From contig JACRJB010000014.1 of assembly GCA_016215605.1 (NCBI GenBank), positions 62,001-126,000 of the forward strand: a DNA stretch of 64,000 nt, given 5' to 3'. Below, piece after piece: positions 3,641 to 25,942 of this stretch. Made by a program: the position numbers and the translations under genes. Each line of letters begins with the position of its first letter. Positions within the stretch are counted from its first letter, which is position 1. The notes below the pieces were generated by a model. The model saw only the letters and a list, made by a program, of their open reading frames with translations. It was not told the origin of the DNA and searched no databases. The DNA comes from Rhodopseudomonas palustris (GTDB lineage Bacteria > Pseudomonadota > Alphaproteobacteria > Rhizobiales > Xanthobacteraceae).

Positions 3641-3688
3641 AGCATGACGGACAACGACAACGACAATAAGTCGATCGGGAGGGAAACC

Positions 3689-4936: not shown

Positions 4937-4959
4937 CGGACGGCTTTGACCAACACGCG

Positions 4960-5046: not shown

Positions 5047-5069
5047 AACTGAAAGAGGCCGGGGACGCC

Positions 5070-5945: not shown

Positions 5946-5948
5946 GCC

Positions 5949-7703: not shown

Positions 7704-7711
<8 letters not shown>
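6953..7711 (+). CDS. livG: branched-chain amino acid-type ABC transporter ATPase LivG
   Basis: The protein has 252 aa. Walker A is GPNGAGKST at about residue 40, the Walker B region reads LLLLDEPTAGMGPEE, and the H-loop is VEHKM. The ABC signature is atypical: AHGEQRALEIA replaces the usual LSYGQQRxLEIA. The long insertion after the Q-loop and the C-terminal VYLG ending are typical of LivG. The start overlaps the LivM stop and the end overlaps LivF by 8 bp. Confidence 0.92.
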
Positions 7712-8408
<697 letters not shown>

Positions 8409-8438: not shown

Positions 8439-9656
8439 CTAGGCTCTCAGCGCTGCAAGGATGGGGCGCAGGTACTCCAGCAGCTTCGGCGGATTTTCCG
8501 TCATCGGGAAGTGCCCGAGTTCGGGCATCTCCGTCACTGTCGCGCCGTCGATCCATTCAGCAAGTGCGGTTGCGTCGCTGACGGTGGCGGAAAAGTCGTA
8601 GTGGCCGATCAGGAAGTGCACCGGGGTCCGGCGTCCGTCGATGCGACGGGCGATCGGTTCGCCGTCGAACTCGTCCGAATAGAACGCCAGGTCACCGTCG
8701 TAGATGCCCGGCGCGCTCTGCGAATAGATCCAGGCGGCGCGGCGGCGATCCTCGGCGGGGCTCGATGGACTCATCAATCCGCGTACATAAGCGGCGGAAT
8801 GCCAGCCGCCATTGACCTGCGCGTGGGTGAGAAACCGGTTGCGCCGGCCGCGCGGCCGCAGCGGCGCTTCGAGCGCGATCACCGCGGTGACGAGGTCCGG
8901 CCGCTCGGCGGCAAGCGCCAGCGCAATGCCGGCGCCCATCGAACAGCCGATCAGGCCGACCGGCTGACCGATGACCTGTTCGATGAAGCTCACGCACCAA
9001 TCGAGATAGGTCGCCTGATCGAGCCGGTAGACGCCGCCGTCCCAGCCGGCGGGAGGCATCGAACGGCCGTGATGCGGCAGATCGAACCCCGTCAGCGTCC
9101 AGGAACGGCCGAGTTCGGGATCGCACATCACTCCGTGAAACTGTCGCGTGTCGGCGCCGGCCGTGTGCAGACACAACAACGGTGCACCCTGACCTGCGGT
9201 CTCGGCGTAGATGTCCGCGATCTGGCCATCGGCGCTGCGAACGCGATGATAGCGTCCGGTGAGCCGCGACAGATCAACCGCCACGCGCGCAAACGGGGGC
9301 TTTGCGAGGTTGGCAAACACCGCTTCGAGAAATGCGCGGGCCTGCGCGATCGCGAGGTCATCGCCCGTCACGGCGAAGTTCGGATTGCGCAATTGGATCG
9401 ATGAGAACGAGTGATAGGTCGGCGGCGGACAGGGCGCCAGCACCTCACCCCAAGCGCTCGCCGGCCCGGTCAGCTTAATGTCGGCGGGCGTGCCGGCCGC
9501 GGCAAGCACGGGCACGCCGGCGCGGCAGTGCACCGTGATGGTCGCATCATCGATTCCGAACGCGATCGCCAAATCGAGCCCGCGCGCGAATGACGCCGCT
9601 TCGGGCGCCGCGATCGCCTGCGTCAGCCGTTCGCGCAACAGATCGATCAGGGCCAT
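8439..9656 (-). CDS. SCP2-like N-domain fused to an alpha/beta hydrolase
   Basis: The protein has 405 aa, with a domain of about 130 residues ahead of an alpha/beta hydrolase (about 135-405). The hydrolase has a CLHTAGAD oxyanion region, nucleophile elbow GCSMG with Ser239, acid in GHYDFS and His in ELGHFPM. The N-domain, with its SAW...PCPPPTYHSF...VTGDD pattern, resembles an SCP2 lipid-binding fold. It is recognisably related to the stand-alone protein at 18980-19372, whose downstream neighbour is a paralogue of this hydrolase. The gene heads away from its own regulator and follows a HIBADH-family gene by 12 bp. The substrate is probably an ester or C-C bond intermediate of the local pathway (inference). 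Confidence 0.8.
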   Translation of the reverse strand: MALIDLLRERLTQAIAAPEAASFARGLDLAIAFGIDDATITVHCRAGVPVLAAAGTPADIKLTGPASAWGEVLAPCPPPTYHSFSSIQLRNPNFAVTGDDLAIAQARAFLEAVFANLAKPPFARVAVDLSRLTGRYHRVRSADGQIADIYAETAGQGAPLLCLHTAGADTRQFHGVMCDPELGRSWTLTGFDLPHHGRSMPPAGWDGGVYRLDQATYLDWCVSFIEQVIGQPVGLIGCSMGAGIALALAAERPDLVTAVIALEAPLRPRGRRNRFLTHAQVNGGWHSAAYVRGLMSPSSPAEDRRRAAWIYSQSAPGIYDGDLAFYSDEFDGEPIARRIDGRRTPVHFLIGHYDFSATVSDATALAEWIDGATVTEMPELGHFPMTENPPKLLEYLRPILAALRA

Positions 9657-9668
9657 GGATGTGGTCTG

Positions 9669-10559
9669 CTAGTGCTTTGCCGTCAGAAAGCGGCCGATCT
9701 CGACATGATCGGCGGTCGGTCCGAGTTCCTGCATGGCGGCGTCCCACAGCGCCGCGACCTCGTCGGCCAGCGGCGCGCTGACGCCGATCTGATGTGCCAG
9801 CTCGTCGGCGGTGCGGATGTCCTTGGCCATCAGCGCCAGCGAGAAACCCGTGGTGTATTTCTCCGGGATGACGAATTGCTTGAGCTTGTTCTCGGTCGAG
9901 TTGTTGCGTCCCGTCGATGCGTTCAGCACGTCGACGAGAACCTCGGGTTCGATGCCGAAGCGGCCGCCGATCGCCACGGCTTCGACCGCGGCGGCGAGGC
10001 CGGCGGCGGAGACGTAGTTGTTCAGCGCCTTGGCGGCGTGGCCGGAGCCGAGCGGGCCGGTGCGAAAGATCGACTTGCCCATCGCCTTCAGCACCGGTTC
10101 GGCACGATCGATGCTGGCGCCGTCGCCGCCGGCCATGATCGCCAGCGATCCGTCGATGGCGCGTTTCACGCCGCCCGACACCGGCGCGTCGATGAAGGCG
10201 ACGCCGGCCGCGATCAGCTCTTCGCCGAGGGTGCGTGTGCCCATCGGGGCCGACGAGCTCATGTCGATCACCACCGTGCCGGGCTTGAGGCGGTCTTTGA
10301 TGCCGTCGATCGCGGCCCGTACGATTTTGCCGTCGGGCAGCAGGGTGATCACCGCGGCCGCGCCGTGGACGGCGTCGACGGCAGTCGCGGTCGCGGTGCC
10401 GCCGGTCTCGACGTATTTGTTGCGGGCCTCGGCAAACGTATCGAAGCCGACGACCTGATAGCCGGCATGCACCAGGCACGCCGCCATCGGGCGGCCCATA
10501 TTGCCGAGCCCGATCACGGCGATCCTGGCGGGCGGATGGATGGCGGCTGACTGGGTCAC
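9669..10559 (-). CDS. NAD(P)-dependent 3-hydroxyisobutyrate dehydrogenase-family oxidoreductase
   Basis: The protein has 296 aa. The N-terminal Rossmann motif is VIGLGNMGRPMA (residues 15-26), followed by the family loop DAPVSGGVKRAIDG and the catalytic-Lys helix KALNNYVSAAG. These are standard for the beta-hydroxyacid dehydrogenase family (MmsB, GarR and relatives), which oxidises or reduces short 3-hydroxy acids or semialdehydes. It sits between the hydrolase and the GntR-type regulator on the same strand and is likely under that regulator. A second family member lies at 21522-22406. Exact substrate unknown. Confidence 0.88.
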   Translation of the reverse strand: MTQSAAIHPPARIAVIGLGNMGRPMAACLVHAGYQVVGFDTFAEARNKYVETGGTATATAVDAVHGAAAVITLLPDGKIVRAAIDGIKDRLKPGTVVIDMSSSAPMGTRTLGEELIAAGVAFIDAPVSGGVKRAIDGSLAIMAGGDGASIDRAEPVLKAMGKSIFRTGPLGSGHAAKALNNYVSAAGLAAAVEAVAIGGRFGIEPEVLVDVLNASTGRNNSTENKLKQFVIPEKYTTGFSLALMAKDIRTADELAHQIGVSAPLADEVAALWDAAMQELGPTADHVEIGRFLTAKH

Positions 10560-10622
10560 GGGCGTTTCCTCGTTATATCGTTTTATCGTTGGGTCGGACG
10601 TATTGGACGGCGGATTGCGCCG

Positions 10623-11306
10623 TCAGGATTCGGCGCGACCGAGTGCGTCGAGCGCGATCGCGGCGGCATTCTTGATGTGCTGCACGCAGGCCTGTTCGGC
10701 GCCGTCCTCGTCACCGGACTCGATGGCGAGCAGGATGGTCTCGATTTCAGCGAGGCTGCGGCCGATGCGGTTGGGCTGGGTCATCGATGTCATGCGCAGC
10801 ACCGTCACCCGGTTCAGCAACATTTTGAGAAAGCGCTCGACGAACACGTTGCCGCATCCTTCGAGCAGTGCGGCGTAGAACTCGGTCTTTGCGGCCAACA
10901 GATCGCTGCGATCTTCCTGGCCGGCAACGGCGCCCATCTGTTCGAATTGCTTGCGCAGCCGGCCGATGATCACGGGATCGCGCCGCCGCGCGCATTCACG
11001 GCCGGCATAGCCTTCGAGCAGCGCACGCAGATCGTACAGCTGCGCGGCTTCTTCAGCGGTGATGGTGCTGACGATCGGGCCGCGGTGCGGGATCGTTGTG
11101 ACCAGCCCTTCGGCCTCGAGTTGCCGCAGCGCCTCGCGGATCGAGGTGCGGCCGACGCCGGTCTGTTCGCACAGCTCGCGTTCGATCAGCCGCTGGCCCG
11201 GCTTGAACACGCCGCTGCCGATCGCCGAACGCAGCCGATTTTCGACCAGCAATCTCAGGCTGGTCGATTCCCGCGAGACATTGAGGTCCGATTCAATCTT
11301 CGCCAT
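10623..11306 (-). CDS. GntR-family transcriptional regulator, FCD (FadR-like) subfamily
   Basis: The protein has 227 aa from the ATG nearest the family start; the frame continues upstream but overlaps the divergent gene. The N-terminal winged helix-turn-helix contains GVGRTSIREALRQLEAEGLV. The C-terminal all-helical FCD domain carries YDLRALLEGYAGRECA and the metal-binding histidine region EIETILLAIESGDEDGAEQACVQH. FCD regulators usually sense small carboxylates. Its position, divergent from a binding-protein gene and upstream of the dehydrogenase/hydrolase pair, suggests control of both directions. Confidence 0.88.
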   Translation of the reverse strand: MAKIESDLNVSRESTSLRLLVENRLRSAIGSGVFKPGQRLIERELCEQTGVGRTSIREALRQLEAEGLVTTIPHRGPIVSTITAEEAAQLYDLRALLEGYAGRECARRRDPVIIGRLRKQFEQMGAVAGQEDRSDLLAAKTEFYAALLEGCGNVFVERFLKMLLNRVTVLRMTSMTQPNRIGRSLAEIETILLAIESGDEDGAEQACVQHIKNAAAIALDALGRAES

Positions 11307-11414
11307 GTGGCAGAATTGACCGACTATCAGACAATCTGTCAAGCCGCTTGACCGATCGTCTGTTTTGTGGCGAGTTTGGCTCAAGCAAAAGAAACACAAC
11401 GGGAGGAAAGCGTC
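11307..11414. promoter_or_regulatory. divergent promoter region with candidate GntR operator
   Basis: This 108-bp gap separates the FCD regulator from the divergent binding-protein gene. An interrupted palindrome, CAGACAATCTG, lies at 11328-11338, inside the longer GACTATCAGACAATCTGTC. A partial copy of the half-site (GATCGTCTG) lies near 11355. FCD regulators bind short palindromes of this kind, but the exact operator is inference. A good ribosome site, GGGAGGAAAG, precedes the rightward ATG. Confidence 0.4.
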
Positions 11415-12638
11415 ATGTCGAAGATTTCGCGCAACCGTGCCGGACTGAGCCGACGAACCTTGCTCGCGGGCGCCGCGTCGGTGCTGGCCAGCCCGATGGT
11501 GATCTCGTCGGCCCGTGCGCAGGCAAAGCCGGTCAATGTCGGCGTCATCCTGCCGCTGTCGGGCGCCAACGCGCAGTTCGGCATCAATTCCCGCAACGGC
11601 ATCGAACTGGTCGCCGATGAAATCAACGCGGCCGGCGGCATCAAGGCGCTCGGCGGCGCGAAGATCAATCTGATCGTCGCGGACGCGACCTCGACGCCGA
11701 CCACGGCGGGCACCGTCGCGCAGCGTCTGATCACCCAGAACGAAGTCACCGCCATTCTCGGCGCGTTCGCCTCGTCGCTGACCATCGCGATTTCGGAAGT
11801 CACCGAACGGCGCGATATCCCGTTGCTGACCATGTCGTTCGCCGACCAGATCACCGGGCGCGGCTTCAAGAACATCTTCCAGGTCGTCGCCAAGGCGTCG
11901 GCGATCGGCAAGGCACAGCTCGACTATTCCGTCGCTCTGGCCCAGGCGGCTGGCAGCAAGATCGACAAGATCGCGATCATGTACGAAGACACCGCCTACG
12001 GCACGGCGCAGGCCGGCGGCCTTCGGGCCGCAGCCAAGGCGGCCAACATCGAGATCGCAATGGATGACGCCTATCCGCTGGGCATCACCGACACCACGCC
12101 GCTGATCAACAAGCTGCGGGCCTCGGGCGCCCAGGCGGTTTTCCCGGTCTCTTATCTCAACGACAGCCTGCTGCTGATCCGCACCATGCGGCAGCAGCGC
12201 ATCACCATCCCGGCCATCGGCGGCGCCGCCGGCTACGTCATTCCGGATTTCGAGAAGGGCCTCGGCGAATTTGCCGAAAACGTGCTGTCGATCGCGCCCG
12301 CCAATTACGATCTGGCGCCGGATCTCACCGAGCGATTCCGCAAACGCTATGGCTACTTCATGGTGCACGAGGCGCTGGAGCACGCGGTCGCGCTCGACGT
12401 GCTGGTGCAGGCGATCGAGAAGGTGAAATCGGCCAAGGCCGAGGACGTCGCCGCCGGGCTGCGCGGCGCCAAGTTCACTGGTGGTTGGACCAAGGCGATG
12501 ACCGGCGGCGCTGTCGAATTCGACAGCACGGGCCTCAACGTCTTGTCCGTTCCGGTGATGGTGCAGTGGCGAAACAAGGAACTGGTCACCGTGTGGCCGA
12601 AGGATGTCGCCAAGGGCAGTGCGGTCTGGAAGTCCTGA
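11415..12638 (+). CDS. ABC transporter periplasmic ligand-binding protein (LivK-type) with Tat-like signal
   Basis: The protein has 407 aa. The N-terminus has a twin-arginine-like SRRTLLAGAASVLAS signal ending at SARAQA. The mature part begins VNVGVILPLSGANAQFG and keeps the EINAAGG motif, as in the HAAT receptor family. The start follows a GGGAGGAAAG ribosome site. A complete permease/ATPase set follows 13 bp downstream, so this is its receptor. The receptor differs clearly in sequence from the one at 3689-4936, so a different ligand is likely. Confidence 0.9.
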   Translation: MSKISRNRAGLSRRTLLAGAASVLASPMVISSARAQAKPVNVGVILPLSGANAQFGINSRNGIELVADEINAAGGIKALGGAKINLIVADATSTPTTAGTVAQRLITQNEVTAILGAFASSLTIAISEVTERRDIPLLTMSFADQITGRGFKNIFQVVAKASAIGKAQLDYSVALAQAAGSKIDKIAIMYEDTAYGTAQAGGLRAAAKAANIEIAMDDAYPLGITDTTPLINKLRASGAQAVFPVSYLNDSLLLIRTMRQQRITIPAIGGAAGYVIPDFEKGLGEFAENVLSIAPANYDLAPDLTERFRKRYGYFMVHEALEHAVALDVLVQAIEKVKSAKAEDVAAGLRGAKFTGGWTKAMTGGAVEFDSTGLNVLSVPVMVQWRNKELVTVWPKDVAKGSAVWKS

Positions 12639-12651
12639 TCGGACGATCGTA

Positions 12652-13512
12652 GTGGCTTTTCTGCAGGCAATCATCGACGGGCTGCTGGTGGGCGGCGTCT
12701 ATGCCGTCATCTCCATCGGCCTGACGCTGGTCTACGGCGTGATGGGCATCGTGAATTTCGCGCAGGCGGAATTCGTGATGATCGGCATGTTCGTGTCCTG
12801 GTTCGCGTGGGCCTATCTCGGCCTCGATCCGGTGCTGGCCGCGCCGCTGTCGTTCGCGGTGGCGTTCGGCATCGGCTGGCTGGTGCAGGGGCAACTGATC
12901 GCGCGTGTGCTGAAGGCGCCGTCGGTGGCGCAGATCTTTCTCACCGTCGGCTTGCTGATTGTGCTGGAAAACGGGTCGCTGTTGCTGTTCGGCTCGCAGT
13001 TTCGTTCGGTGACGACCTCGTATCAGACGCAGTCGCTGTCGCTCGGGGCGCTGTTCATCAGTGTGCCGTATCTGATCGCCTTCGGAATGTCGCTGCTGTG
13101 CGGCGTCGCGCTGTGGTGGTTCATGCGCACGTCGTGGTTCGGCCGGGCGATGCGGGCCACTGCGCAAAATCCGATGGCCGCGCAACTGATGGGGATCGAC
13201 ACCGCGCTGATGTACAAGATCGCGTTCGCGCTCGGCGTCGGGCTGACCGCGTTCGGCGGCGCCGTGATCCTGCCTTACGTCACGGTGTTCCCGGGCGTCG
13301 GCGGCCAGTTCGTCGTGCTGATGTTCACCGTCGTGGTGCTCGGCGGTCTCGGCAGCGTCGCGGGTGCGGTCGTCGGCGGCTTGGCGGTCGGCGTGATCCA
13401 GGCGCTGTCGTCGCTGGTGTTTCCGATCCAGCTGCAGAATCTCGTGCTGTTCATCGTCTTCATCGTCGTGCTCGCGGTCCGCCCGCAAGGTCTGGTGGGG
13501 GCAAGCCGATGA
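12652..13512 (+). CDS. livH: branched-chain amino acid-type ABC transporter permease LivH
   Basis: The protein has 286 aa if translation starts at the GTG 13 bp after the receptor stop (VAFLQAIIDGLLVGG). An in-frame ATG at 12604 would extend it into the receptor gene and is less likely. GLTLVYGVMGIVNFAQAEFVMIGMF and VVLGGLGSVAGAVVGG are the LivH motif blocks. It overlaps the LivM start by ATGA. It forms the membrane channel of the second importer. Confidence 0.9.
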   Translation: MAFLQAIIDGLLVGGVYAVISIGLTLVYGVMGIVNFAQAEFVMIGMFVSWFAWAYLGLDPVLAAPLSFAVAFGIGWLVQGQLIARVLKAPSVAQIFLTVGLLIVLENGSLLLFGSQFRSVTTSYQTQSLSLGALFISVPYLIAFGMSLLCGVALWWFMRTSWFGRAMRATAQNPMAAQLMGIDTALMYKIAFALGVGLTAFGGAVILPYVTVFPGVGGQFVVLMFTVVVLGGLGSVAGAVVGGLAVGVIQALSSLVFPIQLQNLVLFIVFIVVLAVRPQGLVGASR

Positions 13513-14480
13513 AGCGCTGGATCGCGATTGCGGCGGTCATCGCGGTGGCCGCCGTACTGCCACTGCTGCTCAACCCGACCGGATACTGGATCCGCATCCT
13601 GACCTTCACGCTGTTGTTCGCAGCGATGGCGCAGGTCTGGAACATCATCGGCGGGCTCGCCAATCAGACGTCGCTCGGCCATGCGGCGTTCTTCGGCATC
13701 GGCGCCTACACCTCGACGATCCTGTTGCTGAAGTTCGGTCTCAGCCCGTGGATCGGGATGTTCGCCGGCGGCCTGCTCGGCGGGATCGCGGCCCTGATCA
13801 TCGCTGTGCCGACGATGCGCCTGCAGGGCCATTACTTCGCGCTGGCGACGCTGGCGTTCGGTGAAGTCATGCGCGTTATCGCCAACGTCTGGACGCCGCT
13901 CACCGGCGGGCCCGGTGGGCTCTCCGTACCCTTCATGCCACCCAGCGTGGCGGCGTATTCTTTCAAGCAGCTGTTGCCGCACGCCTACATTGCGCTGATC
14001 GCCTTGATCGTCGTGACCTTCATTTTCGAGGCGATCCGCCGCGGCGCGATGGGCTATCGGCTGCGCGCCATCAAGGAAAACGCGGCCGCGGCCGAAGTGA
14101 TCGGCATCGACACCACCAAGGTGAAGCTGCAGACCGCGGTGATCTCCGGCGTGCTGATGGCGATGCTCGGCACACTTTACGCTCAGGTCGCGGTGTTCTT
14201 CGATCCGGACACGGTGTTCAGCGCGGCGTCGATCTCGATCCGGGTGGCGCTGATCGCGATCCTCGGCGGCGTCGGCACCGCGATCGGTCCGATCCTCGGA
14301 GCGCTGTTCATCATCCCGGTCGAGGAACTGATGAACGATCTGTTCTCCGCGAGCGCTGCCGGACTATCGCAGTTGATCTTCGGCGTGATTCTGATCGCCG
14401 TCATTCTGTGGCGGCCGCGCGGATTCATCACGGTTTTCGACGCGATGGTGGCGCGGCTGTCGGGCAGGGCAGGTTCATGA
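13509..14480 (+). CDS. livM: branched-chain amino acid-type ABC transporter permease LivM
   Basis: The protein has 323 aa with about nine hydrophobic segments. Motif blocks are GGLANQTSLGHAAFFGIGAY, the loop RAIKENAAAAEVIGIDTTKVK that couples to the ATPases, and ILGGVGTAIGPILGA near the C-terminus. Four-base overlaps with both neighbours place it in one translationally coupled operon with LivH and LivG. Confidence 0.92.
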   Translation: MKRWIAIAAVIAVAAVLPLLLNPTGYWIRILTFTLLFAAMAQVWNIIGGLANQTSLGHAAFFGIGAYTSTILLLKFGLSPWIGMFAGGLLGGIAALIIAVPTMRLQGHYFALATLAFGEVMRVIANVWTPLTGGPGGLSVPFMPPSVAAYSFKQLLPHAYIALIALIVVTFIFEAIRRGAMGYRLRAIKENAAAAEVIGIDTTKVKLQTAVISGVLMAMLGTLYAQVAVFFDPDTVFSAASISIRVALIAILGGVGTAIGPILGALFIIPVEELMNDLFSASAAGLSQLIFGVILIAVILWRPRGFITVFDAMVARLSGRAGS

Positions 14481-15202
14481 CGATTCTCGATGTGCGTGGC
14501 CTCTCCAAACGCTTCGGCGGTCTTCAGGCGCTGTCCGATGTGACCTTCTCGGTGCCGAAAGGCCAGATCGTCGGCCTGATCGGGCCGAACGGCGCCGGCA
14601 AGACCACGTTCTTCAGCACGTTGGTCGGGCTGATCCGCCCGGACAGCGGCAGTGTCACGCTCGACGGCACCAGCCTGGTCGGCCTCAAGCCGCACAAGGT
14701 CGCTGCGCTGGGGATGACCAAGACCTTCCAGAACGTGGCACTGTTCGCCGAAAGCTCGGTGCTCGACAACGTTCTCACCGCGGGCTTGCTGCGCCACGAT
14801 GTCGAGACCGCGCGCGCCGAGGCGTTGCGCTGCCTCGATCGTGTCGGCCTCCGGTCGGTCGCGCACAAGCTGGCCGGCAATCTGTCGTTTCCCGAGCGCG
14901 CGCGGGTCGAGCTGGCGCGGGCGCTATGTACCGGCCCCAAGGTGTTGCTGCTCGACGAGGTGATGGCCGCGCTGAATCCGGTCGAGATGCAGGAGATCAT
15001 GGATCTGATCCGTTCGCTGCGCGACGACGGCATCACCCTGCTGGTGGTCGAGCATCACATGCGGGCGATCATGACGATCTGCGATCGCATCGTGGTGCTG
15101 AACTTCGGACGTCTGCTGGCGGATGGCACGCCGGAGCAGGTCGCCAACGACCCGCAGGTGGTGGAAGCCTATCTCGGCCGCTCGATGGAGGCGCGGGCAT
15201 GA
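14477..15202 (+). CDS. livG: branched-chain amino acid-type ABC transporter ATPase LivG
   Basis: The protein has 241 aa. Walker A is GPNGAGKTT near residue 38, Walker B is KVLLLDEVMAALNPVE, and the H-loop is VVEHHM. Two deviations from LivG consensus are visible: DEVMAAL replaces the usual DEPxAGL after the catalytic Asp-Glu, and the signature reads LSFPERARVELARAL. The Asp-Glu and the Walker lysine are intact, so ATPase function is still expected. Confidence 0.9.
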   Translation: MTILDVRGLSKRFGGLQALSDVTFSVPKGQIVGLIGPNGAGKTTFFSTLVGLIRPDSGSVTLDGTSLVGLKPHKVAALGMTKTFQNVALFAESSVLDNVLTAGLLRHDVETARAEALRCLDRVGLRSVAHKLAGNLSFPERARVELARALCTGPKVLLLDEVMAALNPVEMQEIMDLIRSLRDDGITLLVVEHHMRAIMTICDRIVVLNFGRLLADGTPEQVANDPQVVEAYLGRSMEARA

Positions 15203-15921
15203 GTGAGTCAGCTCTGCTGCTCGAGATCGCGGGCCTCAACGCCGGCTATGGCGAGATCGAGGTGCTGCACGGCATCGACCTGCAGGTGCGCGACGGCGAG
15301 TTCGTCTGCATCATCGGAGCCAATACCGCCGGCAAGAGCACCATCCTGCGTGCTATCTCGCGGCTGGTCCCGCACGTCACCGGCACATTGCGCTTCGCCG
15401 GCGCCGATCTCGCCGGTCGGGCGTCGCACGAGATTCCGGCGCTCGGGATTGCCCACGTGCCGGAAGGCCGTCACGTGTTCGCCGACATGACGGTTGAGGA
15501 GAACCTGTTGCTCGGCGCGTTCACGTTGCGCCACCAGCCGGACCTTCCGGCGCGCATGGACGGCGTGTTCGAATTGTTCCCGCGGCTGCGCGAGCGGCGC
15601 GCCCAGCTCGCCGGCACCTTGTCCGGAGGCGAGCAGCAGATGGTGGCGGTCGGCCGCGCCTTGATGCTGCAGCCGCGGCTGCTGCTGCTCGACGAACCCA
15701 GCCACGGCCTTGCGCCGAAGGTGGTCGAGGAGATGCACGACGCATTCACAACGATTCATCGCCGCGGCACGTCGATCCTGCTGGTGGAGCAGAATGTCGG
15801 GCTGGCGCTCGATGTCGCGACGCGCGGCTACGTGCTCGAGAGCGGCCGTATCGCACTGCAGGGCTCGTCCGCAGAACTGAATCAAAATCCTGCCGTTCGC
15901 GCCGCCTATCTGGGTATATGA
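15199..15921 (+). CDS. livF: branched-chain amino acid-type ABC transporter ATPase LivF
   Basis: The protein has 240 aa. The P-loop reads GANTAGKST at about residues 41-49. It satisfies the general GxxxxGK[ST] pattern, but the usual Gly of GRNGAGKT is replaced by Thr. The AHVPEGRHVFADMTV Q-loop region, LSGGEQQMVAVGRAL signature and LLLLDEPSHGLAP Walker B are normal for LivF. It ends the second importer set, and the carboxymuconolactone-decarboxylase-family gene starts 53 bp later. Confidence 0.9.
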   Translation: MSESALLLEIAGLNAGYGEIEVLHGIDLQVRDGEFVCIIGANTAGKSTILRAISRLVPHVTGTLRFAGADLAGRASHEIPALGIAHVPEGRHVFADMTVEENLLLGAFTLRHQPDLPARMDGVFELFPRLRERRAQLAGTLSGGEQQMVAVGRALMLQPRLLLLDEPSHGLAPKVVEEMHDAFTTIHRRGTSILLVEQNVGLALDVATRGYVLESGRIALQGSSAELNQNPAVRAAYLGI

Positions 15922-15974
15922 CCCGACCGGCCTGCGCTGTCGACGCAGGCCAATCAAACTGGAAGGACGACCTC

Positions 15975-16379
15975 ATGAGCTATGATCAGACAATCACCCT
16001 CGGCGGCATGTTCGACATCGGGCTTTCGGCGCGACGCGAAGTGCTGGGCGCCGCCTATGTCGACAAGTCGATGCAGTCGACCAACGACTTCATGATGGCG
16101 TTCCAGCACATCACCACCGAATGGTGCTGGGGCTACGCGTGGAATCGGCCCGGCCTCGATCGCAAGACCCGCAGCATGCTCAATTTGGCGATGCTGACAG
16201 CGCTGAATCGCGCGCCGGAGATCAAGCTGCACACCCGCGGCGCGATCACCAACGGCGTCACCGTCGAGGAGATCAAGGAAGTGCTGCTGCACGCTACCGT
16301 GTATTGCGGCATCCCCGCCGGCCTCGACGCGTTCAAGGCCGCCAACGAGGTCCTCAAGGAAATGGGCAAGGTGGAGTAG
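15975..16379 (+). CDS. carboxymuconolactone decarboxylase-family protein (PcaC-like)
   Basis: The protein has 134 aa, the length of PcaC. The core LDRKTRSMLNLAMLTALNRAPEIKLHTRGA and the later VEEIKEVLLHATVYCGIPAGLDAF block match the CMD family, including 4-carboxymuconolactone decarboxylase of the protocatechuate branch. No other beta-ketoadipate gene is nearby, so a related decarboxylase or isomerase role in the local pathway is as likely as true PcaC. The start was chosen from the ATG after GGAAGGACGACC. It probably shares the transcript of the second importer. Confidence 0.82.
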   Translation: MSYDQTITLGGMFDIGLSARREVLGAAYVDKSMQSTNDFMMAFQHITTEWCWGYAWNRPGLDRKTRSMLNLAMLTALNRAPEIKLHTRGAITNGVTVEEIKEVLLHATVYCGIPAGLDAFKAANEVLKEMGKVE

Positions 16380-16392
16380 CGACGACGTCGCT
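16378..16392. terminator. short palindrome between convergent genes, possible weak bidirectional terminator
   Basis: AGCGAC-GAC-GTCGCT spans the 11-bp gap between the CMD-family gene and the opposing aldehyde dehydrogenase. It has only 6 stem pairs and no T-run on either side, so termination is doubtful. Confidence 0.25.
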
Positions 16393-17824
16393 ACCCCGCC
16401 AGCGCGAATTGGTGTGAGACGTTCTTGGTGATCGTGTAGCACCCAAGCCCTTCGGTGCCGCCTTCGCGGCCGTAGCCGCTGTCCTTGACGCCGCCGAACG
16501 GGGTTTCGGCGGTCGATGCCACAAAGTGATTGATGGTGAGATTGCCGGTTTCGACCTCGTTCGACAGCCGTTGCACGTTGTCGGCCGATCGCGTGAAGGC
16601 GTAGGCGGCGAGGCCGAACGGCAGGGCGTTGGCCTTGGCGATCGCCTCGTCGAGGTCGCGCACCGGATTGACCAGCGCCAACGGGCCGAACGGCTCCTCG
16701 TTCATCGCCAGCGCATCGTCGGGAAGATCGGCCAGCACCGTCAGCGGATAGTAATAGCCGCGGTTGCCGATCCGCTGTCCGCCGGCCATCACGCGGGCGC
16801 CGCGCGATTTGGCATCCGCCACCAACCGCTCCATCGCTTCGATCCGGCGAACATTCGCCAGCGGTCCGAGCTGGGTCGTCCGATCCAGTCCGTTGCCGAT
16901 CTTCAACTGCGCGGCGCGCTCCGCGAACGTGGTGGCGAAGCGCTCGTAGAGTGATTCATGGACAAAGAACCGCGTCGGTGCGACGCACACCTGACCGGCG
17001 TTGCGCGACTTGGCGACCGCCGACGCGGCGGCGGTCGCGACCGGATCGACGTCGTCGCAAACGATCACCGGCCCGTGGCCGCCGAGCTCCATGATCGCCG
17101 GCTTCATCGCGCGGCCCGCCATTGCGGCCAGATGCTTGCCGACCGGCACCGAGCCGGTGAAGGTGATCAGGCGGATCGTCGGATGCGGCACCAGATGATC
17201 GGAGATCGCCGCAGGATCGCCGTACACCAGGTTGAGCACGCCCGGCGGCAGGCCGGCGTCGTGGAAGGCGCGGACCAGTTGCAGCGCGCCGGCCGGTGTT
17301 TCTTCCGATGCTTTCAGGATGATCGAGCAGCCCGACGCCAGTGCGCCGGCGACTTTGCGCGCCGGTGAACTCATCGGAAAATTCCACGGCGAGAACGCCG
17401 CGACCGGGCCGATCGGCTGGCGATACACGGTGTGCTGCAGTCCGGGGCCGGCCGGAATGACGCGGCCATACAGCCGCATGCCTTCGGTCGCGTCCCATTC
17501 GATGATGTCGCAGCCGCGCAGGATTTCCAAGCGCGCCTGATCGAGCGGCTTGCCTTGCTCGAGCGTCATCGCCACCGCCATCTGATCGACGCGTTCGCGG
17601 ATCAGCGCGGCGGCACGCAGGATGATCTGCGCCCGCGCGTTCGGGGCCGTCTTGCGCCACAGCGCGAAGCCGCGCGCCGCTGCGTCGAGCGCGTCGTCGA
17701 GATCGGCGATCGTCGCGTGCGGCACGGTGCCGAGCACGCTTTCGTCTGCAGGATTGATGATCGGGGCGCCTGGCCTGCGGAGCCAGTGCCCGCCGACATA
17801 GAGCTCGATCCCTGGATAGGTCAT
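16391..17824 (-). CDS. NAD(P)-dependent aldehyde dehydrogenase (succinate-semialdehyde dehydrogenase-like)
   Basis: The protein has 477 aa. The catalytic cysteine is Cys280 in NAGQVCVAPTR, the general-base Glu246 sits in MELGGHGPVIV, and the cofactor region reads FTGSVPVGKHLA. SPWNFPM and EEPFGPLALV complete the class signature. I used the ATG at 17824; an upstream ATG at 17881 would add 19 residues without family similarity. It probably oxidises an aldehyde or semialdehyde from the local pathway. It faces the CMD gene and is divergent from the TctC-like gene, sharing a short promoter region with it. Confidence 0.9.
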   Translation of the reverse strand: MTYPGIELYVGGHWLRRPGAPIINPADESVLGTVPHATIADLDDALDAAARGFALWRKTAPNARAQIILRAAALIRERVDQMAVAMTLEQGKPLDQARLEILRGCDIIEWDATEGMRLYGRVIPAGPGLQHTVYRQPIGPVAAFSPWNFPMSSPARKVAGALASGCSIILKASEETPAGALQLVRAFHDAGLPPGVLNLVYGDPAAISDHLVPHPTIRLITFTGSVPVGKHLAAMAGRAMKPAIMELGGHGPVIVCDDVDPVATAAASAVAKSRNAGQVCVAPTRFFVHESLYERFATTFAERAAQLKIGNGLDRTTQLGPLANVRRIEAMERLVADAKSRGARVMAGGQRIGNRGYYYPLTVLADLPDDALAMNEEPFGPLALVNPVRDLDEAIAKANALPFGLAAYAFTRSADNVQRLSNEVETGNLTINHFVASTAETPFGGVKDSGYGREGGTEGLGCYTITKNVSHQFALAG

Positions 17825-17887
17825 TGCCACGTCCGCTTGCTGATGAAGCGCGGGCGATGCTGCCCGCTTGCGTCCCATCAAATCATA

Positions 17888-17913
17888 TGTTCATATAATA
17901 GAACAAGCGTTCT
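17888..17913. promoter_or_regulatory. overlapping inverted repeats around a TATAAT box
   Basis: TGTTC (17888-17892) and GAACA (17901-17905) are inverted arms eight bases apart. The second arm overlaps another inverted repeat, AGAAC-AAGC-GTTCT (17900-17913). A perfect -10-like TATAAT lies between the first arms at 17894-17899 on the + strand. The layout fits a repressible promoter for the rightward TctC-like operon, and possibly also the leftward aldehyde dehydrogenase. The IclR-type regulator at 22403 is the nearest candidate binder (inference). No convincing -35 box was found. Confidence 0.45.
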
Positions 17914-17997
17914 GCTGGACAGAATGACACGAAGTTGGATCGTGAGCCGGCATCGTTCAGCGCCGATCCAACAAAACAAAAAGCAGCGGGGAGAGAG

Positions 17998-18993
17998 ATG
18001 ACAGCGAAGCACAAGCCGCCACCGCCCACACGGCGCACAGTACTGGCGATGATGGTCAGCGGCGCGGCTCTGGCGCCGTCATGGCTGCATGCGGCGGAGC
18101 CGTACCCGAGTCGGCTGATCAAGCTGCTGGTGCCGTTTCCCGCCGGCAGCGCCACCGCTGTCGAAGGGCGCTATCTCGCCGACAAGGTCGGCGCGCTGCT
18201 CCATCAGAAGATCATCGTCGAGAACAAGCCGGGCGCGAACGGCAACCTCGGAGCCGCCGAGGCCGCACGTGCCGCGCCGGACGGCTACGCGCTGTATCTC
18301 GCGACCAATTCGACCCATTCGGCCAATGTGCATCTCTATCGCAAGATGCCGTTCGACCCGGTCGCGGACTTCACGCCCATCGCGCGGTTGACGCGCAATC
18401 CGCTGGTGATGGTGGTCGGCAAGGACTTCCCCGCCAAGACGCTGGCGGAGTTCATCGCCTACGCCAAGGCCAATCCCGGCAAGCTCAGCTACGGCACCGG
18501 CAACACCGGCAGCATGGCCGCCGTCCAACTCATCAAGTCGATGGCCGGGATCGATGCGGTGCGCGTGTCGTATCCGGGCACGCCGCAGGCGATCACCGAT
18601 CTGCTCGGCGGGCGCATCGAATTCGTCATCACCGACATCGCGGTGACGCGCGAATTCGTCCAGAGCGGCAGCCTCCGCGCGCTCGGTGTGACCACGGCTC
18701 AGCGCGTCGGATCGCTGCCGGACGTGCCGACGATCGCCGAGGCAGGCCTGCCCGGCTACGACTTTGCTTCCTGGAGCGGTCTGTTCGCGCCCAAGAACAC
18801 GCCGGACGACATCGTGCAAACGCTCAACAAGGCGTTCGTCAGCGTGATGGCGACGCCGGAGTCGCAGAAATTCTTCGCCGACATCGGCCTCGAGCCGGAC
18901 ACCAGCACGCCGCAAGGCCTCGCCGATCACGTCAAGGCGCAGACCGAACTGTGGGGCCGTATCATCAAGGAGTCCGGCCTTGAAAAAATCTGA
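17998..18993 (+). CDS. tripartite tricarboxylate transporter substrate-binding protein (TctC/Bug family)
   Basis: The protein has 331 aa. The start was chosen at the ATG after GGGGAGAGAG. An N-terminal signal has TRR and a hydrophobic stretch ending at WLHAA. The mature part has the Bug features LLVPFPAGSATA, ENKPGANGNLGAAEAARAAPDGY and LPDVPTIAEAGLPGYD. This family binds carboxylates in the periplasm for TctA/TctB membrane partners, but none is in the window, so the receptor is an orphan here. It starts the operon that contains the TcuA/TcuB-type genes, so a tri- or dicarboxylate ligand is plausible. Confidence 0.9.
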   Translation: MTAKHKPPPPTRRTVLAMMVSGAALAPSWLHAAEPYPSRLIKLLVPFPAGSATAVEGRYLADKVGALLHQKIIVENKPGANGNLGAAEAARAAPDGYALYLATNSTHSANVHLYRKMPFDPVADFTPIARLTRNPLVMVVGKDFPAKTLAEFIAYAKANPGKLSYGTGNTGSMAAVQLIKSMAGIDAVRVSYPGTPQAITDLLGGRIEFVITDIAVTREFVQSGSLRALGVTTAQRVGSLPDVPTIAEAGLPGYDFASWSGLFAPKNTPDDIVQTLNKAFVSVMATPESQKFFADIGLEPDTSTPQGLADHVKAQTELWGRIIKESGLEKI

Positions 18994-19372
18994 TCCGGTG
19001 AGCGAGGCGTTTACGCGTCTGCCGGCGATGCTGGAGCAGGGCGCTGCGCTGATCCAGCGCGGCCGGCTGCTCGACGTCGATTGTCTGCTGGGCTCGACCG
19101 AGCAGGCCTTTCACGTGGCGATCCGCGGCGGACGTATCGTGGACTTGGCGCCGGCGCCGGTGTTGATGCGGGTCTGGACCTTCGCATACCGGGCGACGCC
19201 GGAGGCGTGGACGGCGTATTGGCAGCCGATGCCGGCCGCCGGCTGGCACGATCTGTTGGCGCTCACCAAGCGCGGCGCCGCGACGCTCGAAGGCGACATC
19301 AAGCCGTTCATGACGCATCTGCAGTACTTCAAGGATCTGCTGGCGCTGCCGCGCACGGGGGCTGCGCGATGA
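18980..19372 (+). CDS. stand-alone SCP2-like domain protein
   Basis: The protein has 130 aa. The TTG at 18980 has a near-ideal AAGGAG seven bases upstream and overlaps the preceding gene by 14 bp; the first ATG, at 19028, would cut the family region. The sequence contains TPEAWTAYWQPMPAAGWHDL and a following EGDI, which align with the N-domain of the fused hydrolase at 8439-9656 (SAWGEVLAPCPPPTYHSF and TGDD). The general pattern resembles SCP2 sterol/lipid-carrier folds. The stop overlaps the hydrolase start by 4 bp, so the two products probably act together as the split form of the fused protein. Confidence 0.7.
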   Translation: MKKSDPVSEAFTRLPAMLEQGAALIQRGRLLDVDCLLGSTEQAFHVAIRGGRIVDLAPAPVLMRVWTFAYRATPEAWTAYWQPMPAAGWHDLLALTKRGAATLEGDIKPFMTHLQYFKDLLALPRTGAAR

Positions 19373-20226
19373 CCGGCCGGATCGAGCCAATGGTCGGCCG
19401 CTACGTGCACGTCGAGATCGACGGCACGGCGCACCGGATCTATTTCGAGGAAGCGGGCCGGGGCATTCCGCTGGTCTGCCTGCACACCGCGGGCTCGGAC
19501 GGACGGCAGTGGCGCCATCTGCTCGCCGACGAAGAGTTCGCCAAGGACTTTCGCATCATCGCTTTCGACCTGCCGTGGCACGGCAAGTCGAACCCGCCGG
19601 CGGATTGGAACGGTACCGAGTATCAGCTGACGACCGCGCGCTATACCGAGACGATCCGCGCCTTCTGCGCCGCACTCGACCTCGAGCGGCCCGTCGTGAT
19701 GGGCTGCTCGATCGGCGGCCGCATCGTGCTCAATCTGGCGATTGATCACGCGCGCGAGTTCAGGGCGCTGATCGGCCTCGAAGCGGCGGACTTCCAGGCG
19801 CCCTGGTACGATACGAGCTGGTTGAACCGCCCGGACGTTCATGGCGGCGAGGTCTGCGCGGCCCTGGTGTCCGGTCTGGTCGCGCCGCAGAGTCCGGCCG
19901 AGACGCGTATGGAGACGCTGTGGGCCTACAAGCAAGGCGGTCCCGGCGTGTTCAAGGGCGACCTGTATTTCTATCGCGTCGATGGCGATCTGCGCGGCCG
20001 CACCGGCGCGATCGATACCAGCGTGTGCCCGCTCTATCTGCTCACCGGCGAATACGACTTCTCCTGCATGCCAGAGGACACACTGCGGACCGCAGCCGGC
20101 ATCGTCGGCGCGCAGGTGACCGTCATGGAGCAACTCGGTCATTTTCCGATGAGTGAAAACCCAGCGCAGTTCCGGAGCTACATCGCGCCGGTGCTCGAGA
20201 CCATCAAACAACAAAAGACATCCTGA
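19369..20226 (+). CDS. alpha/beta hydrolase, paralogue of the fused hydrolase
   Basis: The protein has 285 aa. The start is set by the 4-bp overlap with the SCP2-like gene. The nucleophile elbow is GCSIG with Ser114; the oxyanion region is CLHTAGSDGRQW; the acid is in TGEYDFSC and the His in QLGHFPMSENP. Several stretches match the hydrolase half of 8439-9656 almost word for word (LCLHTAG, FDLPHHG versus FDLPWHG, GHFPM). A soluble hydrolase of a carboxylic ester, lactone or diketone is expected; substrate unknown. Confidence 0.85.
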   Translation: MTGRIEPMVGRYVHVEIDGTAHRIYFEEAGRGIPLVCLHTAGSDGRQWRHLLADEEFAKDFRIIAFDLPWHGKSNPPADWNGTEYQLTTARYTETIRAFCAALDLERPVVMGCSIGGRIVLNLAIDHAREFRALIGLEAADFQAPWYDTSWLNRPDVHGGEVCAALVSGLVAPQSPAETRMETLWAYKQGGPGVFKGDLYFYRVDGDLRGRTGAIDTSVCPLYLLTGEYDFSCMPEDTLRTAAGIVGAQVTVMEQLGHFPMSENPAQFRSYIAPVLETIKQQKTS

Positions 20227-20237
20227 GGAGGAACCCG

Positions 20238-21449
20238 ATGACGGCCAAGGCACTTACGAGAAGCTTGCTTGTTTCAACCGCATTGTTGTTGGCGGCGCAT
20301 GCCGCTGCCGCCGCAGAGACCATCAAGATCGGCGTGCTCAACGATCAGTCCGGCGTGTTTGCCGACAATGGCGGCACCGGCTCGGTGGCGGCGGCGAAGC
20401 TCGCGGTCGAGGATTTCGGCGGCGAATTGTTGGGTCAGAAGATCGAGGTGGTCACCGCCGATCACCAGAACAAGCCGGATATCGCCGCGTCGACGGCGCG
20501 TCGCTGGATCGACAACGAGGGGGTCGACATGATCGCCGACGGCGCTGCGTCGTCGGCCGGCTTCGCGATCCTCGAGGTCGCGCGGCAGAAGAACAAGATC
20601 TTCGTGATCAGCGGTCCGGGATCGTCCGACTTCACCGGCAAGGCCTGCTCCCCGGTGAGTTTCCATTTCAATTACGATACATATGCCCTGTCCAAGATGA
20701 CCAGCGAGGCCGTGACCAAGGCCGGTGGCAACAGCTGGTATTTCATCTCGGCGGACTACGCCTTCGGTCACGCTTTGCAGCGTGACGCCACGAAGTTCAT
20801 CGAGGCCGCCGGCGGCAAGGTGCTCGGCGCCTCGGCGCACCCGCTGGGAACCACCGACATGGCTTCCTTCCTGCTGCAGGCGCAGGGATCCAAGGCCAAG
20901 GTCGTGGGTCTCGCGACGTCGGGCGCCGACGTCCAGACCGCGATCAAGCAGGCCGGGGAATTCGGCATCGTCGAGAGCGGCCAGCAGCTCGCCGGTCTGC
21001 TCGTGTTCATCACCGACGTCAACGCGCTCGGCCTCAAGGTGGCGCAGGGGCTGCAGGTGACGACGTCGTTCTATTGGGACCTCAACGATGACACGCGCGC
21101 CTGGGCCAAGCGCTATTTCGCGGCGACCGGCGGCAAGCCGCCGAGCATGGTGCAGGCCGGTGTCTACAGCGGCGTGCATCACTATCTCGCCGCCGTGAAG
21201 GCCGCGGGCACCAAGGACCCGACGGTCGTCGCCAAGAAGATGCACGAAATGAAGGTCAACGACATGTACAACAAGGACGTCGCCGTCCGGCCGGACGGGC
21301 GCGTCTTGCACACGATGTACCTGGTTCAGGTGAAGAAGCCGGACGAATCGAAGTACAAATACGACTACTACAAGGTTCTGAAGACCTCGCCCGGTGCGGA
21401 GGCGTTCCGCCCGATGAGCGAGGGCAATTGCCCGCTGGTGCAGAACTGA
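20238..21449 (+). CDS. ABC transporter periplasmic ligand-binding protein (LivK-type), no permease adjacent
   Basis: The protein has 403 aa with a Sec-type signal peptide (RSLLVSTALLLAAHAAAAA, cleavage near residue 26). The mature start, TIKIGVLNDQSGVFADNGG, and the internal SADYAFGHALQRD are typical of HAAT receptors. An AGGAGGAA ribosome site precedes the ATG. No permease or ATPase follows; a strong terminator does. It may deliver to one of the two complete importers earlier in the island, or to a distant one. Confidence 0.9.
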   Translation: MTAKALTRSLLVSTALLLAAHAAAAAETIKIGVLNDQSGVFADNGGTGSVAAAKLAVEDFGGELLGQKIEVVTADHQNKPDIAASTARRWIDNEGVDMIADGAASSAGFAILEVARQKNKIFVISGPGSSDFTGKACSPVSFHFNYDTYALSKMTSEAVTKAGGNSWYFISADYAFGHALQRDATKFIEAAGGKVLGASAHPLGTTDMASFLLQAQGSKAKVVGLATSGADVQTAIKQAGEFGIVESGQQLAGLLVFITDVNALGLKVAQGLQVTTSFYWDLNDDTRAWAKRYFAATGGKPPSMVQAGVYSGVHHYLAAVKAAGTKDPTVVAKKMHEMKVNDMYNKDVAVRPDGRVLHTMYLVQVKKPDESKYKYDYYKVLKTSPGAEAFRPMSEGNCPLVQN

Positions 21450-21461
21450 CAACGGTCCATG

Positions 21462-21495
21462 GCGGGCGCGTCGTCTCGACGCGCCCGCGGTTTTT
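21462..21495 (+). terminator. strong intrinsic terminator after the orphan binding protein
   Basis: A 12-bp perfect stem (GCGGGCGCGTCG and its complement) with a TCT loop is followed by GG and five T. It lies 12 bp after the receptor stop and 27 bp before the next gene, which would make the receptor message more abundant than the downstream genes or separate the two units. Confidence 0.85.
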
Positions 21496-21521
21496 GAATT
21501 GGGAATGAAAAGGAACTTGCA

Positions 21522-22406
21522 ATGGCGGCGATCGGATTCATCGGACTGGGTGTCATGGGCGAGCCGATGTGCCGCAATCTGGCGCGGAAGTCCGGCTCCC
21601 CGGTGCTCGGTTTCGATCGGGCGGACGAGCCGCTGCAGCGGCTGGCCGAGGTCGGCGTCAAGCGCGCCGCCTCGCTCGCGGATCTTGCCCGCGATGCCGA
21701 TGTGATCTTCATGGCCCTGCCCAGCGGCAAGCACGTGCAGGCCGTGTGCGACGGCGATGACGGGCTGCTGCGGCATGCCGAAGCGCGCCACACCATCGTC
21801 GATCTCGGCACCTCGCCGGTTCAGGCGAGCCGGGAACTTGCGGAGCGCTTCGCCGCCAAGGGCGCGGCGTTCGCCGATGCGCCGATCGCGCGGACCCGGC
21901 AGGCGGCAGAAGACGGCACGCTCAGCGTGATGGTCGGCGCCGATACGGCGACCTTCGCGAGGCTGCAGCCGCTGATCGCGACCTTTGCTACCGACATCAC
22001 CCATTGCGGCGACGTCGGCGCCGGCCAGGTGGTGAAGATCCTCAACAATATGGTGCTGATGCAGACTGTGGTCGCGCTCGGCGAGGCGCTGGAGACCGCC
22101 CGGCGCGCGGGTCTTGACGGCAAGCTGCTGTTCGAGACGCTGGCCAAAGGGTCGGCGGACAGCTTCGCGTTGCGCAATCACGGCATGAAGGCGATGCTGC
22201 CGGACGCCTTTCCGGAGCGTTCGTTCTCGACCGCCTATGCCCGCAAGGACATCGCCTACGCACTGGATCTCGCCAAATCGGTCGATATCCGGTTGCCGGG
22301 AGCCGAACTGGCCGATCGGCTGCTTGGCGAAGCGATCGACGCCGGCTTTGGCGACCTGTATTGGCCGGTGCTGGCGCGGGTCATCAAGGCGTCGCGCACG
22401 GCATGA
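21522..22406 (+). CDS. NAD(P)-dependent hydroxyacid dehydrogenase, 3-hydroxyisobutyrate dehydrogenase family
   Basis: The protein has 294 aa. The Rossmann motif is FIGLGVMGEPMCRNLA near the N-terminus, and the catalytic-Lys helix reads QVVKILNNMVLMQ. The family's DAPVSGG substrate loop is replaced by DAPIARTRQAAEDG, so substrate preference probably differs from the paralogue at 9669-10559, which keeps DAPVSGG. The stop overlaps the IclR gene by 4 bp. It belongs to the second copy of the hydrolase/dehydrogenase module. Confidence 0.88.
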   Translation: MAAIGFIGLGVMGEPMCRNLARKSGSPVLGFDRADEPLQRLAEVGVKRAASLADLARDADVIFMALPSGKHVQAVCDGDDGLLRHAEARHTIVDLGTSPVQASRELAERFAAKGAAFADAPIARTRQAAEDGTLSVMVGADTATFARLQPLIATFATDITHCGDVGAGQVVKILNNMVLMQTVVALGEALETARRAGLDGKLLFETLAKGSADSFALRNHGMKAMLPDAFPERSFSTAYARKDIAYALDLAKSVDIRLPGAELADRLLGEAIDAGFGDLYWPVLARVIKASRTA

Positions 22407-23173
22407 ACGGAACTGCGATGGCGAAATCCACGACCACGTCCAATGCAGCCGTTGGCCCTTCCTCGCGCGAAGCCGGCGAGGGGGTTGCGGCGGTGGAGCG
22501 AGCCCTGTCGATCGTGGCGGCGCTCGAGTCCTCGGATCAGGCCATGAGCCTCGCCGAACTCGCCCTGCGCACCAAGCTCTATAAGAGCACCATCCTGCGG
22601 TTGCTGGGTTCGCTGCTTGCGACCGGCTACGTGACGCGGCTGTCGGACGGCAGCTACGATCTCGGCCCCGCCGCATTTCGGCTCGGCCTCGCCTTCACCC
22701 GCAAGAATGCGCTCGGCCATCACGTGCTGCCGGCGCTGCAGGAACTGGTCGATCGCGGCACCGAAAGCGCGTCGTTTCACGTCCGACAGGATGCCGAGAA
22801 CCGCCTCTGCCTGTTCCGGGTGAATTCGCGCCACGCCACGCTGGACCGGGTCGAGGCGGGCCACAGCTACGCACTGCAGCGCGGTGCCGCCGGACACATC
22901 ATCCTGGCCTATGACGGCCAGAAGGGTGCGCGTTACGACGCGATCCGTGGCGACGGATTCGATGTCTCGCTGGGCGAGCGCGATCCGAGTTGCGCCGCGG
23001 TGGCTGCGCCGGTGTTCGGCCCGCGCGGTGTGCTGATCGGCGTGATCTCGCTGTCCGGGCCTCGCGAGCGCTTCGGCAAGACCGAAATCGCAGAAATGAA
23101 ACGTGTGCTTGGGCCGGTCGCGGAAAAGCTGACCGACAGTCTCGGGGGCGCATGGCCTGCTTTCCGGCGCTGA
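22403..23173 (+). CDS. IclR-family transcriptional regulator
   Basis: The protein has 256 aa from the ATG overlapping the dehydrogenase stop; an in-frame ATG at 22418 is an alternative. The N-terminal winged helix reads VERALSIVAALESSDQAMSL with LYKSTILRLLGSLLATGYV. The C-terminal effector domain has the IclR end pattern AAPVFGPRGVLIGVISLSGPRERF. It probably senses an aromatic or small carboxylic acid and controls the operon containing it and the TcuA/B genes. The inverted repeats at 17888-17913 are a candidate site. Confidence 0.88.
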   Translation: MNGTAMAKSTTTSNAAVGPSSREAGEGVAAVERALSIVAALESSDQAMSLAELALRTKLYKSTILRLLGSLLATGYVTRLSDGSYDLGPAAFRLGLAFTRKNALGHHVLPALQELVDRGTESASFHVRQDAENRLCLFRVNSRHATLDRVEAGHSYALQRGAAGHIILAYDGQKGARYDAIRGDGFDVSLGERDPSCAAVAAPVFGPRGVLIGVISLSGPRERFGKTEIAEMKRVLGPVAEKLTDSLGGAWPAFRR

Positions 23174-23216
23174 CGATGAAGCTGGCGTTGCCGCTAACCG
23201 CAAGGTGGTCCCGCTG

Positions 23217-25848: not shown

Positions 25849-25942
25849 GAAAGACTGGCGAGGTGGCGTGACGCGCTGTATCTGATGTCGCCACAACAAG
25901 ATGACGCCCGTCGAGGGCGCGCGGTGTCAGGGGAGGAAAACC

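Follow-up and report, generated by a model that had tools for sequence, protein, structure and literature searches.

The stretch analyzed here (the window; 64,000 nt of Rhodopseudomonas palustris DNA) carries, in two forms, a protein unit made up of an SCP2-fold domain and an alpha/beta hydrolase (Table 1). In one form both parts belong to a single fused protein (P0001), and in the other they are encoded by two separate genes, one for a small protein (P0002) and one for a hydrolase (P0003). The occurrence of fused and split SCP2-like/hydrolase versions in one island, put forward in a preliminary description of the sequence, was confirmed. Its view of one two-domain unit near two different regulators also held, with a GntR/FCD gene by the fusion and an IclR gene by the split pair, and the two forms look exchangeable (L160, L169). 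We propose, with a probability of about 0.6, that the unit processes a lactone intermediate, that it stands in for muconolactone isomerase (CatC) in catA/catB clusters and that the window copies serve other lactones.

The AF2 model of the whole fusion reached a pLDDT of 93.9 and a pTM of 0.92, and its N-domain showed the same order of helices and strands as P0002. Comparison of a fused-only with a split-only profile revealed that the two kinds of N-domain are homologous; set membership was taken from an earlier mixed iterated search, which was itself not accepted as proof of homology since both kinds had entered its profiles. In a VIA-align structure search with the whole fusion as query, all entries listed were hydrolases. 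The predicted fold places the N-domain in the SCP2 superfamily. The gathering score of PF02036 (SCP2) was missed, no row being obtained for P0001 or P0002 at E ≤ 10, and six of 40 family members matched this model at E ≤ 1 (best E 0.002). The family is set apart from the SCP2 and UbiJ-SCP2 proteins (PF02036; 2cx7, 6h6o) by its pairing with a hydrolase in catabolic clusters, and in alkylsulfatase chains the SCP2-fold part lies at the C-terminal end (e.g., residues 546-654 of 4axh). P0003 is 41% identical to the fused hydrolase, which shares ∼33-43% identity with the split hydrolases, and the hydrolase motifs are kept between the two forms. Unrelated N-domains, or hydrolases from separate branches, would have refuted the preliminary description, and neither was found. 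The PF00561 gathering score of 25.8 was passed with 59.1 and 69.1 bits, and the invariant residues S239, D354, and H382 of the fused hydrolase likely form its catalytic triad. Among models and structures, the hydrolases come closest to enol-lactonase, N-acyl-homoserine lactone (AHL)-degrading and esterase enzymes, with the esterases 4uhe and 5h3h among the nearest folds.

When 397 genomes of the window's order were searched with P0002, matches were obtained in 34 of them, and a family hydrolase was present in 30 of the 30 loci fetched, one of which is the window's own. The loci read contained 131 open reading frames (ORFs) with the N-domain, some of them counted in two overlapping loci, and 108 distinct sequences (62 fused, 46 split). 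The hydrolase is in one frame with 66 of these ORFs and directly downstream of the other 65. Only two of 133 hydrolase ORFs lacked the N-domain, both of them starting at a contig end. Many loci were found with P0001, which includes the hydrolase, and the independent evidence for pairing is therefore the P0002 search. One relative of P0002 (G253:C1:1576820-1577189, L010) matches in two overlapping frames and may be broken or misread. Taken together, the sequences support a single unit of SCP2-fold protein and hydrolase, which is kept either fused or split.

A quick tree of 85 hydrolases, the root of which is unsure owing to a very long outgroup branch, needed four changes between the fused and the split form, two of them forced by well-supported branches. 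In this tree, P0003 grouped with the catechol-type hydrolases discussed below in one clade of 27 rows (SH-aLRT 98). The two forms look interchangeable, because split pairs occur in a fusion-type neighborhood (L160 of genome G028) and among sugar-type ABC genes (L169 of G092). The former holds relatives of SBP_b (63%), LivH_b (72%), the other Liv_b genes, MBL (50%), CMD (43%), HIBADH1 (37%), and GntR (40%), and the latter genes share 51-58% identity with their counterparts near the Agrobacterium fusion. Family members were found in alpha-, beta- and gammaproteobacteria, actinomycetes, a Brevibacillus and a haloarchaeon, and Rhizobium accounts for 48 of the 113 plasmid records that P0001 matched. 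On the plasmid of the haloarchaeon, Natronosalvus halobius (L140 8953-10216), the split pair lies beside an NAD(P)-dependent oxidoreductase, MBL hydrolases, and an SDR.

The distribution of the unit was compared with that of CatB (TIGR02534 at E ≤ 1e-80) and CatC (PF02426 at E ≤ 1e-8) in the same 397 genomes. CatB was detected in 19 genomes and CatC in 23, ten of which are among the 19. The catechol-type small protein was found in five of the nine CatB genomes without CatC (G151, G229, G300, G365, and G379) and in none of the ten with both (Fisher p 0.011 over all 19 genomes, relatedness not corrected for); without G081, G092, and G097 the counts are 5/6 versus 0/10 (p 0.0014). The same five genomes, and none of the ten, were matched by P0002 as a single query. 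The catechol-type small-protein profile gave E < 1e-50 in these five and no match in the ten; since sequences from the five genomes themselves are among its 14 rows, the smallness of these E-values is no evidence. The small gene comes immediately after catB in G151, G229, and G379 and lies beside catA, 2-3 kb from catB, in G300 and G365, while catC is located within ∼60 nt of catB in nine of the ten CatC-plus genomes. A location near catB where CatC is missing was observed for the catechol-type form in these five genomes and on plasmids; the window copies, whose genome has no CatB match, do not show it. Catechol-type copies are distributed complementarily to CatC in this sample. A class-wide CatB survey of 200 genomes gave one weak match. 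Of 17 genomes or records examined for canonical PcaD, 14 had it above the cut-off, G229, G300, G365, and the Sulfitobacter D7 plasmid described below among them, and G151, G379, and G274 did not. The CatC step alone is therefore left without an assigned enzyme in some strains, and in others this may hold for the hydrolysis step as well.

According to the published report (PMC9873259), Sulfitobacter D7 grows with benzoate as its only carbon source and expresses its plasmid benzoate cluster, and KEGG mapping recovered every catechol-branch gene except CatC. The ben/cat cluster of its plasmid p5SUD7 holds the pair, with the small protein B5M07_RS19070 and the hydrolase B5M07_RS19065 beside a dioxygenase gene. 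Identity to the D7 pair is 32% for P0002 and 53% for P0003. On those roseobacter plasmids that were read, ben/cat or cat clusters contain the pair, which in Alloyangia comes directly after catB; in Alloyangia and Thioclava it accompanies catB with no ben genes within the stretch read. Among the matches listed, the small protein occurred in all 13 plasmid records whose CatB is closest to that of D7 and in none of the 47 others, 32 of which are among the 60 CatC records listed of 135 and 15 outside those 60. Six of the 13 records were read, and all six show the pair. Among the plasmid records searched, PF02426 was absent at E ≤ 1 from nine plasmids with the small protein. Two pairs lie a few kb apart on Phaeobacter inhibens pP88_c (L131 12025-13213 and 16710-17932), each by a ring-cleavage dioxygenase gene. 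Among the papers listed from open-licence PubMed Central, as far as titles and the openings of abstracts show, none describes the pair or its use as a substitute for CatC, or assigns the D7 step to it.

Catechol-type copies share the catB neighborhood of CatC (PF02426, TIGR03221), but neither P0002 nor the D7 small protein matches PF02426 or TIGR03221, and PF02426 comprises 90 positions whereas the small proteins are of ∼125-130 aa and have a predicted SCP2 fold. The hydrolases missed the cut-off of 255.85 for PcaD/CatD 3-oxoadipate enol-lactonase (TIGR02427; 2xua), with 36.9 bits for P0001, 64.8 for P0003, and 72.1 for the D7 hydrolase, and in contrast to PcaD/CatD they are paired with an SCP2-fold part. 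A like logic is seen in the PcaD-CMD fusions (NF051488, NF051487), in which a lactonase is fused to the enzyme of a neighboring lactone step; here, however, the partner has the SCP2 fold and is not the carboxymuconolactone-decarboxylase (CMD)-family protein, and the scores against NF051488 (52 and 70 bits; cut-off 390) arise through the hydrolase part. A function like that of AAMS hydrolase (3kxp) was rejected, the profile search giving an E of 1.3e-9 versus 1.8e-19 for 5egn.

Table 1. Genes and domains around the fused and split copies of the unit in the window.
Feature	Coordinates	Strand	Evidence and remarks
Alpha/beta hydrolase domain (residue 133 to stop) of fused protein	8439..9260	-	Invariant S239, D354, H382
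SCP2-fold N-terminal domain (∼residues 1-120) of fused protein	9297..9656	-	AF2 model; profile homology to split N-domain
HIBADH-family dehydrogenase (beta-hydroxyacid dehydrogenase superfamily)	9669..10559	-	PF03446, PF14833; under cut-off of all NCBIfam rows listed
GntR/FCD regulator	10623..11351	-	PF00392, PF07729
Liv-type ABC transporter (binding protein, 2 permeases, 2 ATPases)	11415..15921	+	80-96% identity in L066-L076; kept beside many fusions
CMD-family protein	15975..16379	+	PF02627; TIGR02425 139.7 bits, under cut-off 155.7
Aldehyde dehydrogenase, SSADH-like	16391..17881	-	PF00171; TIGR01780 419.7 bits, under cut-off 646.35
TctC/Bug-type tripartite transporter receptor	17935..18993	+	PF03401
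Separate SCP2-fold protein (P0002)	18980..19372	+	Alternative start possibly GTG 18998
Separate alpha/beta hydrolase (P0003)	19369..20226	+	Start overlaps stop of preceding small-protein gene
Periplasmic binding protein without adjacent permease	20238..21449	+	PF13458; same position in L155 (G143), L158 (G253)
Second HIBADH-family dehydrogenase	21522..22406	+	PF03446, PF14833; 32% identical to first HIBADH
IclR-family regulator	22361..23173	+	PF09339, PF01614
TcuA-like flavoprotein and TcuB-like protein	23205..25848	+	TcuA: tricarballylate dehydrogenase model NF006130, 761.3 bits, passes curated cut-off 369; TcuB: by similarity to annotated TcuB of L138 only
MBL-fold hydrolase (lactonase-like)	25901..26791	+	PF00753; 86% identical in L071

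Among 52 named fused loci, the neighbors include CMD-family genes in 41, GntR in 40, HIBADH in 35, Liv or receptor genes in 29, and MBL in 17. Of the six named loci with the split form only, two of them short contigs (4-5 kb), one has a HIBADH relative, and no gene in the five catA/catB-type genome loci carried this label. The low identity of the two window HIBADHs also speaks against hydroxyacid oxidation as the rule following hydrolysis, and both fall under the TIGR01692 3-hydroxyisobutyrate dehydrogenase cut-off of 291.6 bits (P0004 198, P0005 193.5). HIBADH is a feature of the cluster type of the window's split copy and of many fusion clusters and is not a general partner of the family.

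Both forms occur in one region in the Rhodopseudomonas loci L070 and L072, as in the window. The set around the split copy recurs in G143 (L155) and G253 (L158) in the same order as in the window (small protein, hydrolase, receptor, HIBADH, IclR, TcuA, and TcuB), but with a GntR-like gene inserted between IclR and TcuA, and a Martelella plasmid carries the pair within a similar set of genes. A third pair of the window genome (G000:C64:95293-96476, L035) lies beside relatives of acyl-CoA ligase, acyl-CoA dehydrogenase, and SSADH; in Agrobacterium larrymoorei the pair likewise adjoins acyl-CoA ligase and acyl-CoA dehydrogenase genes, and in Rhodococcus an SSADH gene. Upstream in the window (40-8408), a xanthine-dehydrogenase-type molybdenum hydroxylase, whose large subunit (1265-3640) is Pfam-confirmed and whose two smaller subunits were named by eye, is followed by its own Liv-type ABC importer. 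Fused relatives on plasmids of Rhizobium etli (p42d; L126 13983-15212) and Agrobacterium (L127 14001-15233) are 47% and 44.5% identical and lie with MBL/AHL-lactonase-like genes, flavin reductase, CMD, and LLM oxidoreductase, joined in R. etli by a ribBA-type gene and in Agrobacterium by a downstream sugar-type ABC transporter. These two neighborhoods presumably resemble the teu genes for bean-exudate uptake. A root-exudate link was not retained: in the part of PMC8581550 available, the words "teu genes" occur once, in a reference title, and there is nothing on this hydrolase. Trigonelline or N-heterocycle ring opening as a general function was likewise dismissed, LLM relatives being found in eight of the 52 named fused loci and no related paper being listed from open-licence PubMed Central.

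The SCP2-fold protein and the PcaD-like hydrolase would thus act as one functional unit, encoded by two coupled genes, whose products may form a complex, or as one fused chain, and would isomerize and/or hydrolyze a lactone intermediate in catabolic gene clusters. The earlier idea of binding plus hydrolysis keeps its unit; the nearest hydrolase models and the best contexts suggest a lactone step, and the binding role of the N-domain would follow from its predicted fold. In catA/catB clusters of some alphaproteobacteria, the unit would replace muconolactone isomerase: CatB makes muconolactone, which the unit may convert to 3-oxoadipate either by isomerization to the enol-lactone and hydrolysis or by direct opening of the lactone. 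In the window, the first copy would serve the cluster of GntR, HIBADH, CMD, and Liv importer and the second that of the lone receptor, HIBADH, IclR, and TcuAB, each presumably opening a different lactone other than muconolactone. The CMD, MBL, and TcuAB neighbors would fit carboxylated lactones as substrates.

Several observations weigh against this proposal. The lactone function itself we infer from homology, context, and predicted folds, and no acid or base is fully invariant in the N-domain across the family alignment. At the thresholds used, no CatB, CatC, or TIGR02439 match was obtained in the window genome; its units must therefore handle other compounds, and function is transferred to them by analogy. 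Among CatC-plus genomes, G236 has a fused gene and G045 matches across both parts on another contig, which restricts the complementarity with CatC to the catechol-type copies. The five genomes with the small protein belong to four families of one order; the CatB of G379 is under the family cut-off, the TIGR02439 matches of G151 and G229 are on other contigs, and G229 has a weak MIase-family match (30.6 bits, cut-off 26.7), again on another contig. G081, G092, and G097 score as CatB yet are ∼40% identical, with no catA labelled nearby. For D7 as for the other plasmid-bearing strains, the survey covers plasmid records alone; catB and the small gene are ∼108 kb apart in Leisingera thetidis, and the D7 ring-cleavage dioxygenase scores 148 bits, far under the catechol model's cut-off of 392. 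Finally, G347 has catA/catB and neither CatC nor a small-protein match. In this genome (G347:C1), a glutathione S-transferase-family gene (PF13409; L167 8939-9574) lies right after catB, and canonical PcaD follows a LysR gene; the transferase-family gene is possibly another CatC stand-in.

Which part of the unit performs the chemistry can be viewed in two ways. The SCP2-fold part may be a lactone isomerase, and thus a non-orthologous replacement of CatC, in which case the window fusion would join isomerase and lactonase in one bifunctional enzyme acting on a lactone different from muconolactone; we regard this as a tentative and rather unlikely version. Alternatively, the hydrolase does all the chemistry and the SCP2-fold part serves to cap the active site, to hold the substrate or to stabilize the hydrolase, a serious contender to which we give somewhat less than even odds. 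The constant 1:1 pairing, the high pTM of the fusion, which suggests a fixed placement of the two parts, and the SCP2-fold part of alkylsulfatases (4axh) are in line with a non-catalytic role. Conservation can be read both ways, as the N-domain widely keeps only W, P, G, and D, and H less often, across the family, which leaves catalysis by it a possibility and not a finding, but the catechol-type small protein is strongly conserved, with H84, D85, K91, D100, N107, R109, and K112 invariant in its 14-row alignment. These seven residues would suit a dicarboxylate-binding active site. Moreover, three of the five genomes (G229, G300, and G365) and the D7 plasmid carry canonical PcaD, which leaves the isomerase, not the hydrolase, unaccounted for.

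A different function has also to be considered. The unit could be an importer-linked esterase for hydrophobic aromatic or plant esters whose SCP2 part binds the lipophilic substrate, with unrelated enzymes supplying the CatC step. The SCP2 fold, the frequent Liv or receptor neighbors, the esterases among the nearest folds and the weak MIase-family gene of G229 agree with this, but the complementarity of catechol-type copies to CatC and the presence of pair and catB without nearby ben genes in Alloyangia and Thioclava make it improbable. The window copies might instead have drifted to another chemistry, such as thioester or amide hydrolysis, so that the CatC link would tell little about them. 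The acyl-CoA ligase and dehydrogenase genes beside the third pair and that of A. larrymoorei, the SSADH gene in Rhodococcus and the limited identity between fused and split hydrolases point in this direction; as motifs and pairing are kept and P0003 falls within the catechol-type clade, we consider such drift doubtful.

Our finding that the pair accompanies catB in a number of the sampled genomes and plasmids without a CatC match makes it a conserved candidate for the CatC gap in a published benzoate degrader (PMC9873259), and turns this gap into a two-gene experiment. A lactone-processing role would place genes that at present carry the labels "hypothetical protein" and "alpha/beta hydrolase" in a functional context. 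If the SCP2-fold part is indeed an isomerase, a fold of lipid carriage would become a catalytic step in the catabolism of aromatic and plant compounds.

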